Below are positions 15,339 to 17,460 of a stretch of 64,000 nt of DNA, piece by piece. The stretch comes from Solirubrum puertoriconensis. Its GTDB lineage: Bacteria; Bacteroidota; Bacteroidia; Cytophagales; Hymenobacteraceae. Under the pieces are notes generated by a model, which ran no database searches, was not told where the DNA came from, and saw only the letters and a list, made by a program, of their open reading frames with translations. Position 1 is the first letter of the stretch; each line of letters opens with the position of its first letter. Both the position numbers and the translations under genes were made by a program. The stretch lies in NCBI RefSeq assembly GCF_001483135.1, contig NZ_LNAL01000006.1, positions 992,003-1,056,002 of the forward strand, written 5' to 3'.

Positions 15339-16391
15339 ATGAAGCAGCAATCCTCTCGCAACACCTGGCTGAAAGCCGCCGGCATTGGTGCCGCCGTAGC
15401 AGCCGTTGCCCTTTGGGCTAATCGCCGTGGTTCGTACGACTTGCGCGGCAAAGTAGTGTTGATTACCGGCGGCTCGCGCGGCCTAGGGCTGGTGCTAGCC
15501 CGCCAGGCCGCAGCCGAGGGTGCCCGGGTGGCCATCTGTGCCCGCGACACCGACGAGCTGGAGCGCGCCCGCAAGGAGTTGCTGACTGAAGGAACCGAAA
15601 TCCTGACCCTGGCGCGCGACCTCAGCGACGAAGCCGAAGTGCGCACCATGGTGGCCGAAGTTCGCAACGAGCTAGGGCCCATTGATGTGCTCATCAACAA
15701 CGCCGGCATCATCACGGGCGGCCCGCTTGAGCACATGGATGTGCGTGACTATCAAGAGTCGATGGATATTCACTTTTGGGCGGCGCTCCACGCCATGTAC
15801 GCCGTGCTACCCGACATGAAGCGCCGCCGCGGCGGGCGCATCATCAATATTGCCTCGGTTGGGGGCAAAGTATCGGTGCCGCACCTTGCGCCTTATTGCG
15901 CCAGTAAGTTTGCGCTGGTGGGCTTATCAGAAGGTTTTCGGGCCGAGTTGCTGCGCTACGGCGTGTATGTTACCACGGTGTGCCCCGGCCTCATGCGCAC
16001 CGGTTCGCCGCGCCAGGCCATCGTGAAAGGGCAGCACCTGCTGGAGTTTGCCTGGTTTATGGTGGCCGATTCGCTGCCCGTGCTTACCGTGAGTGCCGAG
16101 TACGCTGCCCGGCAGGTGTGGAACGCCGCCCGCCGCGGCGATGCAGAGCTGATTTTGGGCATGCCAGCTAAAATCATTTCGTTGCTGCACGGCATTGCGC
16201 CCGGCACCGTGGCGAACATGCTCAGTATGGTAAACCGAGCACTGCCCGGCACAACCGGCGAAATCGGCGACGAACGCCGCCGTGGTTTCGAAAGCGAATC
16301 GCCGGTGACCAAATCCTGGCTTACAACGCTAACGCGCAAAGCAGAGAAAGAAAACAACGAGCTAAACAACCATTCGCCGTACCCGGCCTAG
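15339..16391 (+). CDS. SDR-family oxidoreductase with N-terminal membrane anchor
   Basis: The 350-residue protein starts with a basic segment and a hydrophobic stretch (about residues 11-25), then a classical SDR domain. TGGSRGLG lies near residue 43, NNAG near 121, and the Ser-Tyr-Lys set in NIASVGGKVSVPHLAPYCASK near 170-190. A C-terminal extension of about 90 residues carries a charged tail. The anchor suggests work at the membrane on a hydrophobic substrate, as in the DHRS7-like group; this is inference. The gene is followed, with no obvious terminator, by the phhA leader. Confidence 0.8.
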   Translation: MKQQSSRNTWLKAAGIGAAVAAVALWANRRGSYDLRGKVVLITGGSRGLGLVLARQAAAEGARVAICARDTDELERARKELLTEGTEILTLARDLSDEAEVRTMVAEVRNELGPIDVLINNAGIITGGPLEHMDVRDYQESMDIHFWAALHAMYAVLPDMKRRRGGRIINIASVGGKVSVPHLAPYCASKFALVGLSEGFRAELLRYGVYVTTVCPGLMRTGSPRQAIVKGQHLLEFAWFMVADSLPVLTVSAEYAARQVWNAARRGDAELILGMPAKIISLLHGIAPGTVANMLSMVNRALPGTTGEIGDERRRGFESESPVTKSWLTTLTRKAEKENNELNNHSPYPA

Positions 16392-16470
16392 GAGGCAAGG
16401 GTGGGTTGCGTACCAAAAAAATAACCCAAGGGTAGACGGTTCATCCCGAAACTCTTCCCATATTTACCCC

Positions 16471-16575
16471 ATGCACCTGTTCAGCCAGTCGTACTATTAT
16501 TATTACCCGACCTGCCAGCCCACCGGCTTCGGCAACGGTCGTGTATGTACGACGGCATCCGAGCAGACCCAGTAA
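16471..16575 (+). CDS. Tyr-rich leader peptide of phhA
   Basis: A 34-codon ORF (ATG 16471, TAA 16573) encodes a peptide starting MHLFSQS, followed by five consecutive Tyr codons (tac tat tat tat tac, 16492-16506). It lies 86 bp before the phenylalanine hydroxylase start and 25 bp before an intrinsic terminator. A five-Tyr run in a short ORF directly upstream of the gene that makes Tyr from Phe is what a ribosome-stalling attenuator predicts. The peptide has no other recognisable feature and contains two Phe codons outside the run. Translation is inferred, not shown. Confidence 0.7.
   Translation: MHLFSQSYYYYYPTCQPTGFGNGRVCTTASEQTQ
16508..16541 (+). promoter_or_regulatory. Attenuator hairpin directly after the Tyr codons (candidate 1:2 stem)
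   Basis: CGACCTGCC at 16508-16516 pairs with GGCA at 16531-16534 and GGTCG at 16537-16541, giving nine base pairs with a two-base bulge. The 5' arm starts two bases after the last Tyr codon, so a ribosome stalled in the Tyr run would cover it. The competing antiterminator pairing is not obvious by eye. Confidence 0.5.
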
Positions 16576-16600
16576 CGTCTCCGCGAAACCGCTTCATACC

Positions 16601-16638
16601 GCCCCCGTCCGATAGCCGGACGGGGGCTTTTTGTTTTT
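16601..16638 (+). terminator. Attenuator terminator upstream of phhA
   Basis: GCCCCCGTCCG (16601-16611) and CGGACGGGGGC (16617-16627) form a perfect 11-bp stem with a five-base loop, followed by TTTTTGTTTTT. It lies between the leader ORF stop and the phhA ATG at 16662. It would stop transcription before phhA unless an alternative fold or regulator prevents it. Confidence 0.85.
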
Positions 16639-16661
16639 ACCTCTTTCAAACCCTAGGTACC

Positions 16662-17402
16662 ATGAAAGCTCTCCAGCAACACTACGACCAGTACACCGAC
16701 GAAGACCGCCAAGTGTGGCAACTCCTTTTCGAACGCCAGCTGCAGGCCTTGCCGGGCCGCGCGGCACCCGAGTTTATGGAAGGGCTGGCCCGCATTGGCT
16801 TCACCGCCGACCGCATTCCCGATTTCAGGCAAGTAAACCAAGTACTGCGCCGCCTTACGGGGTGGGAGCTGGTGGCCGTGCCCGGTATTGTGGATGATGC
16901 CGTGTTCTTTGGCATGTTGGCGGCCAAGCAGTTTCCGGCTACTACCTGGCTGCGCAAGCTCTCGGAGCTGGATTACCTGGAAGAGCCCGACATGTTCCAC
17001 GACGTGTTCGGCCACGTGCCGCTGCTGGCTAATGCCGAGTTCTGCCGGTTTTTGCACCAGCTAGGCCACATTGGGTTGCGCCACGCCTCCGACGCGGCCG
17101 CCGTGGAGCTGTTGGCGCGGCTGTACTGGTTTACCGTTGAGTTTGGGCTGATTCGCGACGCCGGCAGCGGAGAGGCGCGCATCTACGGGGCGGGCATCTT
17201 GTCATCGGCCGGCGAAACGCGTTACAGCCTCGGCGAAGTACCAACCCGTTTGCCTTTTAACGTAGCCACCGTTACCGACACGGCCTTCCGCAAAGACGAA
17301 TTCCAAACAACCTACTTTGTGCTGGAGTCGCTCGATCAGCTATACGCCACGTTGCCACAAATGCAGCAGCTGTTGCGCGAAGCCATTGTAGCCGAGCTGT
17401 AG
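16662..17402 (+). CDS. phhA: Phenylalanine 4-monooxygenase
   Basis: The ATG at 16662 gives a 246-residue protein, the length of bacterial single-domain phenylalanine hydroxylases without an ACT regulatory domain. It is cytoplasmic and converts L-Phe to L-Tyr with O2 and a tetrahydropterin. The iron ligands are visible as His113 and His118 (FHDVFGH) and Glu160 (WFTVEFG). A longer in-frame reading from 16545 runs through the attenuator terminator and is rejected. Expression is probably controlled by the Tyr-leader attenuator. No pterin-carbinolamine dehydratase gene (phhB) is adjacent. Confidence 0.93.
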   Translation: MKALQQHYDQYTDEDRQVWQLLFERQLQALPGRAAPEFMEGLARIGFTADRIPDFRQVNQVLRRLTGWELVAVPGIVDDAVFFGMLAAKQFPATTWLRKLSELDYLEEPDMFHDVFGHVPLLANAEFCRFLHQLGHIGLRHASDAAAVELLARLYWFTVEFGLIRDAGSGEARIYGAGILSSAGETRYSLGEVPTRLPFNVATVTDTAFRKDEFQTTYFVLESLDQLYATLPQMQQLLREAIVAEL

Positions 17403-17427: not shown

Positions 17428-17460
17428 GCCCCTAGGTGAACTACCACCTAGGGGCTTTTT
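17428..17460 (+). terminator. phhA terminator
   Basis: GCCCCTAGGTG/CACCTAGGGGC, 11 bp with a six-base loop, is followed by TTTTT. Both arms contain a CCTAGG palindrome. Confidence 0.85.

Follow-up and report, generated by a model that had tools for sequence, protein, structure and literature searches.

A probable tyrosine-sensing leader-peptide attenuator upstream of phenylalanine hydroxylase in Solirubrum puertoriconensis and related Bacteroidota

The phenylalanine hydroxylase gene (phhA) of Solirubrum puertoriconensis is preceded by a short reading frame with an unbroken run of Tyr codons and by an intrinsic terminator, which raises the question of whether the gene is switched according to the supply of tyrosine, the amino acid that its enzyme makes. 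We examined the locus within a window of 64,000 nucleotides (the whole stretch of DNA analysed), which belongs to a genome of 4.80 Mb in 8 contigs; coordinates are positions in this window, and all features lie on its forward strand. The regulated gene, phhA (16662-17402), starts with the ATG at 16662, as in the original prediction, and its product of 246 aa is a phenylalanine 4-monooxygenase: it scores 283.4 bits against the NCBIfam profile TIGR01267, above the curated cut-off of 264.75, and is matched by solved PhhA structures (best E value 4e-72). Its nearest named homologues, among the best 80 of at least 586, are those of Hymenobacter busanensis, H. gummosus, Hymenobacter sp. CRA2 and H. 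jeollabukensis (83-86% identity). A terminator-like hairpin 3' of phhA (17428-17455), found by consensus scan only, suggests a one-gene transcript. Our reading is that the region 16459-16662 very probably attenuates transcription of phhA, here a tyrosine-making gene, by a ribosome-mediated (trp-type) mechanism that responds to charged tRNA-Tyr.

The leader ORF (16471-16575; 34 codons, MHLFSQSYYYYYPTCQPTGFGNGRVCTTASEQTQ) appears in the ORF listing, has homologues in relatives, and carries the expected five consecutive Tyr codons (TAC TAT TAT TAT TAC, 16492-16506), the proposed site of ribosome stalling. Four Tyr codons in a row are matched 11 times in the whole genome, the phhA leader being counted twice (6 times for a reversed-pattern control), and this leader is the sole match within a short ORF that has an ATG before the run. 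The codon TAT makes up 25 of the 38 Tyr codons in nine leaders of the window's lineage and 100 of 172 in those of the other Hymenobacter group, and is rarer in the genes of the window (89/538); this preference may also have to do with weak RNA structure where the ribosome would stall.

A candidate -7 promoter box, CATATTTA (16459-16466), lies 4 nt before the leader ATG and departs from the Bacteroidota consensus TAnnTTTG at two positions. Of 82 distinct Tyr-leader loci, 48 have a box with no more than one mismatch 4-6 nt ahead of the leader ATG; Pontibacter-type leaders are without this arrangement. Passages of a study of Flavobacterium psychrophilum place a TAnnTTTG-like box at -12 to -5 (PMC9723704), and with that spacing the leader transcript would begin 0-2 nt before the ATG. 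The promoter box thus suggests a leaderless mRNA, with the A of the leader ATG, or a base beside it, as the point where transcription would begin.

Is the Tyr run more than an accident of sequence? We looked for an ATG ORF with clustered Tyr in 7 residues, no more than 320 nt upstream of phhA, in the 80 homologues. With three or more Tyr such leaders occur at 31 loci, against 1/80 on the reverse strand, 10/940 in downstream windows and 20/1600 in shuffles; with four or more Tyr they occur at 25, against 0/80, 0/940 and 2/1600, respectively, and a chance ORF was rejected on these counts. The same figures bear on another reading, in which the hairpin simply ends transcription of the gene upstream and the Tyr ORF arose by accident. 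This would suit the SDR gene that ends 79 nt upstream on the same strand but fits neither the enrichment of Tyr leaders nor the presence of a promoter box of their own at most of them; we regard it as extremely improbable. The leaders include RYYAYAYYAP in Hymenobacter, TYYYYYQ in Marivirga, KYYYYYYYR in Fulvivirga and KYYSHYYH in Echinicola, with others in Roseivirga and Pontibacter, and in a set of 92 leaders a terminator scanner finds a terminator behind 83.

A family sample, which overlaps in species with these sets of 92 and 80 loci, gave a similar picture. Here phhA genes were divided into type A, to which that of the window belongs, and a second paralogue, type B (43-53% identity to the window's phhA), the types being assigned by score within each genus. 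An upstream ATG ORF with at least three Tyr in 7 precedes 65 of the 69 type A genes assessed (out of 91), or 8/8, 20/20, 34/38 and 3/3 by genus; of 29 type B paralogues, none has a Tyr-rich leader (at least four Tyr in 7). The four type A genes lacking the leader (L135, L136, L140 and L141, 4/38 of one Hymenobacter genus group) sit in genomes that contain TyrA (G129, G131, G177 and G055), and in genomes without TyrA all 21 type A genes assessed have it. The original prediction would have been refuted by homologues that keep the terminator and lack the Tyr codons; by eye the four loci show no leader-terminator unit at all, and relatives of Algoriphagus come part of the way, keeping leader and terminator with a mixture of His and Tyr codons, in some with Phe.

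The RNA between the Tyr codons and phhA can adopt the mutually exclusive pairings that an attenuator would use. The region 16471-16680 folds better than all of 200 dinucleotide shuffles (z -5.6). A 1:2 hairpin, or anti-antiterminator (16484-16556), covers the Tyr codons, and is larger than the nine-pair hairpin first described there: its outer helix joins 16484-16494 to 16547-16556, its inner helix, which is bulged, joins 16504-16520 to 16525-16545, and the hairpin on its own has a folding energy of -31.5 kcal/mol. The terminator (16601-16638) has, as claimed, a perfect 11-bp stem (16601-16611 with 16617-16627), seen also by the scanner and in the pair counts, and is completed by the U-tract TTTTTGTTTTT (16628-16638). 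The antiterminator, which had not been clear by eye, emerged from a masked fold: its 5' half (16526-16547) pairs with a 3' half (16595-16616) that overlaps the 5' arm of the terminator. When 16490-16518 is masked, as had been suggested, and the RNA is ended at 16616, before the 3' arm of the terminator, the antiterminator (-28.2 kcal/mol) replaces the 1:2 hairpin (-42.0 kcal/mol) as the predicted fold. Once the complete terminator is included, it stays the minimum-energy form even under masking, so that the switch would have to be kinetic, as the switch of trp attenuation is held to be.

Predicted folds and pair counts show, in the window and in the Hymenobacter types, an antiterminator that excludes the terminator and is itself blocked by the 1:2 hairpin. 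The antiterminator varies in sequence by lineage and keeps its place between the Tyr codons and the terminator: it is formed by UCGG/GG/CG/GUAUG with CAUAC/CG/CC/CCGA in the window's group, by GGAGCGGAG with UUCCGCUUC in other Hymenobacter, and by GGAAUCGG with CCGGUUCC in Marivirga. We counted pairs in two alignments, one of the window's lineage (9 of 12 sequences, three duplicates being dropped) and one of other Hymenobacter (31 of 38, after dropping five duplicates and omitting L067 and L111, which the terminator scanner missed). In the window's group the 26 pairs of the 1:2 helix are formed in 89.7% of cells, and three of them have changed on both sides, including CG/UA and AU/GC exchanges; the covariation score was reached by 1 of 500 shuffles, and the number of two-sided changes is unexceptional (247/500). 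The 13 core pairs of the antiterminator are formed in 99.1% of cells over the nine sequences (29-56% in slid versions) with no covarying pair and no compensated change, so that this core is conserved and not proved by covariation; the two variable terminator pairs of this group fall outside the core as we defined it. In the other Hymenobacter the 1:2 helix is 96.2% paired, with a covariation score reached by no shuffle, and the antiterminator is 96.7% paired (14/500 shuffles as high), its covariation over the 31 sequences lying within that of shuffles (108/500 as high). Terminator stems are paired in 100% and 98.6% of cells in the two groups, respectively. The interpretation of the locus as an attenuator, put forward in the original prediction, has thus gained comparative and folding support, the structural parts being present and conserved in the window's lineage.

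In the mechanism that we infer, transcription would start at or next to the leader ATG, with a ribosome trailing the polymerase. When tyrosine is plentiful, the ribosome would cross the five Tyr codons and the 1:2 hairpin would re-form, upon which the terminator would fold and phhA would be off. When tyrosine is scarce, the ribosome would stall on the Tyr codons and cover the 5' half of the 1:2 hairpin; the freed 5' half of the antiterminator would then pair with its 3' half as this emerges, the terminator would be pre-empted, and phhA would be transcribed.

We modelled this response by placing a ribosome footprint with each codon in the A site and folding the RNA up to the terminator loop, taking as antiterminator probability the pairing of the terminator's 5' arm with upstream RNA. 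In the window this modelled probability is 0.62 for a ribosome at the last three Tyr codons, 0.23 for one beyond them and 0.16 for free RNA. Codon by codon, the first two Tyr codons give 0.34 and 0.25 and do not expose the antiterminator, and the last three give 0.50, 0.63 and 0.74; the value is 0.39-0.50 on codons 3-7, 0.67-0.74 on the four codons past the run, and 0.15-0.29 on later ones, with one exception at 0.51. We rate the attenuator no higher than very probable because this fold response in the window extends beyond the Tyr codons. Over 24 loci, which we chose from the 92 with leaders and which exclude the Pontibacter type, the mean is 0.66 when the ribosome occupies the final three Tyr codons of the densest stretch, 0.31 when it has moved past them and 0.36 when it is absent, as compared with 0.47, 0.40 and 0.44 when the downstream part is shuffled. 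The mean contrast between Tyr and later codons is 0.35 (0.08 in shuffles), with p at or below 0.05 at 15 of the 24 loci and above 0.10 at L034, L089, L002, L009, L100 and L015; at 7 of the 24 the antiterminator exceeds 0.5 already without a ribosome. Among Pontibacter-type leaders, folds show no Tyr-dependent switch in 7 of 9; L144 shows one, as does L050 with little to spare. When the finished terminator is part of the folded RNA, termination wins at equilibrium in nearly every case, stalled ribosome included (some Tyr positions in L008 and L132 are exceptions), and the decision would therefore have to fall while the RNA is being made.

The window's genome has no match above cut-off to PF02153 (TyrA) or PF00800 (pheA), a weak TyrA match (20.8 bits) being rejected as pyrroline-5-carboxylate reductase, and it has chorismate synthase and 4-hydroxyphenylpyruvate dioxygenase. 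Given the missing pheA and tyrA matches, PhhA and its paralogue are probably this genome's only tyrosine-making route besides uptake, and phenylalanine itself would need to be imported; with chorismate synthase present as well, phenylalanine would be the sole precursor of the tyrosine made, as it is in animals. Prephenate dehydratase and prephenate dehydrogenase are both below cut-off in 4 of 8 genomes of a genus sample, the window's included, and both present in the other four, and chorismate synthase is found in all 8. Across the family, 35 of the 38 genomes that lack TyrA have type A phhA, versus 56 of the 162 that have TyrA (Fisher test, 3.6e-11, which ignores relatedness), in a table where 12 unlisted genomes were deduced by subtraction and six matches were taken from the tally as below cut-off; the TyrA-less genomes without type A phhA are G008, G013 and G039 (78% complete). 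The attenuator reading also fits mutant fitness data reported by the GapMind study, which give phenylalanine hydroxylase a biosynthetic role in Echinicola vietnamensis, where it contributes to tyrosine synthesis, and in Dyella japonica (PMC7311316). The phhA of another Echinicola (L031) has a Tyr-rich leader.

Where relatives do possess pheA and tyrA, those genes have leaders too. We fetched eight pheA...tyrA regions of the Hymenobacter type, and in all 8 of them pheA is preceded by two tandem Phe/Tyr leaders, such as MLAPQAQYFFSYYFYYAHA and MLRTARFFYGFYYFFYRKKRGPICAA; behind each leader come a T-run and what looks by eye like a GC-rich hairpin. A ninth region, from another genus, has a single Phe/Tyr leader before tyrA. 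The pheA gene matches PF00800 in four of the 8 and was recognised by eye from similarity in the other four, and the middle gene is presumably an aminotransferase. The leader codons in this comparison of sequences follow the products, Phe and Tyr mixed for the operon that would serve both and Tyr for phhA, which would serve tyrosine only. This correspondence bears on a second rival, nascent-chain arrest (as in TnaC), by which the poly-Tyr peptide or a bound metabolite, and not a lack of charged tRNA-Tyr, would stall the ribosome. Within the window's lineage the peptide end GFGxGRVC is indeed conserved, and the modelled folds would respond identically whatever stalls the ribosome; but the codons of this conserved end specify the RNA strand that takes part in both pairings, the peptides of other lineages have little in common beyond Tyr richness, and the pheA-tyrA leaders track the product amino acids instead. 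We consider such arrest very improbable at this locus. The tandem Phe/Tyr leaders lie at L194:1188-1420 and at L197-L203 and L205, and one relative's pheA matches in two pieces (G003:C13:32681-33198), as if frameshifted or misassembled.

Attenuators of the trp, his, leu and phe (pheA, pheST) systems are known in proteobacteria. The unit proposed here shares with them a leader rich in the regulated amino acid, exclusive 1:2, 2:3 and 3:4 pairings and an intrinsic terminator before the gene, and differs in that tyrosine would be sensed and a phenylalanine hydroxylase controlled, in Bacteroidota and probably with no 5' UTR. A tyrosine T-box likewise responds to the charging of tRNA-Tyr and controls termination, but binds the tRNA directly, without translation. 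No T-box was matched at the Rfam gathering score in the whole window, or in 16391-16700 with E values of up to 1; the latter, looser search gave only five sub-threshold matches to Rfam elements, all overlapping the terminator, and a T-box or other Rfam element was rejected. Passages of PMC1262725 place tyrosine under T-boxes and phenylalanine under attenuators. The trp attenuator is described in parts of PMC7298713 and PMC10272879, and the leaderless trpL of Sinorhizobium meliloti (PMC7298713) has a transcript that begins at the leader ATG, as we propose, and differs in sensing Trp in an alphaproteobacterium and in that the corresponding start here is deduced from a promoter box. The uORFC-13-1 motif before aroF in Acholeplasma, as it appears in extracts of PMC8632094, is also an upstream ORF with aromatic codons before a terminator in the aromatic pathway, with Phe, another gene and another phylum. 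Within the Bacteroidota, clues to leader-peptide attenuation in F. psychrophilum (PMC9723704) and small ORFs in 5' UTRs of Bacteroides thetaiotaomicron (PMC7366714) are, in the portions available, leader-like and deduced from transcriptome data; the available main text of the former contains neither "phenylalanine" nor a word beginning "tyr". A 2005 survey (PMC1173090), in the sections available, predicts attenuators ahead of tyrA operons, one of them in B. thetaiotaomicron, and the words "leader peptide" are absent from its main text as available. Neither a ribosome-mediated tyrosine attenuator nor one before phhA is among the matches listed from the open-licence literature; the class of mechanism is the classical one, and in the literature searched it seems not to have been described for this amino acid, gene and lineage. 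If the proposal holds, tyrosine would be added to the amino acids that ribosome-mediated attenuators sense, in a phylum with little such control described, and leaders of this kind would be a sequence-readable sign of bacterial phenylalanine hydroxylases that serve synthesis as against breakdown.

Relatives of Algoriphagus have a conserved leader, M[NS]PTPRT[YF][VI]HHS, in which a His/Tyr mixture replaces the Tyr run (L036, L042, L044, L045, L048, L054-L056, L059, L060, L063 and L206-L208). In one set of loci, 14 of the 15 tried gave this leader; in another, of eight, the scanner finds no terminator at L042, and the form, Litoribacter L043 included, has a predicted switch with p at or below 0.05 in 6 of 7 loci folded. 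These leaders (MNPTPRT[YF][VI]HHS[YH]), and the runs of Roseivirga and Marivirga, in which His is often mixed with Tyr, are what would be expected if the unit sensed several amino acids, or the state of the tRNAs for NAY codons (Tyr and His). In the window's lineage, however, the run is Tyr only, bar one Phe in L085/L001, and we think this wider sensing quite unlikely. A broader scheme, in which the leader-peptide attenuators of the Cytophagales would form a shared aromatic code (Tyr for phhA, tandem Phe/Tyr for pheA-tyrA and a third kind for the second phhA) and the His/Tyr leaders would read a property of NAY tRNAs such as queuosine modification, is a speculation that we hold to be improbable. 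A phylum sample of 29 loci added three His/Tyr forms inside the order and one YYYY leader with a terminator outside it; the latter, MFATIMLTSMHISAATYYYYSNRYRLE, precedes a phhA from another family of the same class (L213) and is followed by a terminator-like hairpin and a T-run.

The type B phhA genes have a conserved leader of their own, MLxQSIKCNFxLxVxP...PLH, with a terminator and an antiterminator and no aromatic run. It is found before the second phhA of the window's own genome (contig C7, L082:1314-1403) and at L090, L092-L094 and L096, and folds of five type B loci of group g1 favour the antiterminator as long as the ribosome has not gone beyond about codon 17.
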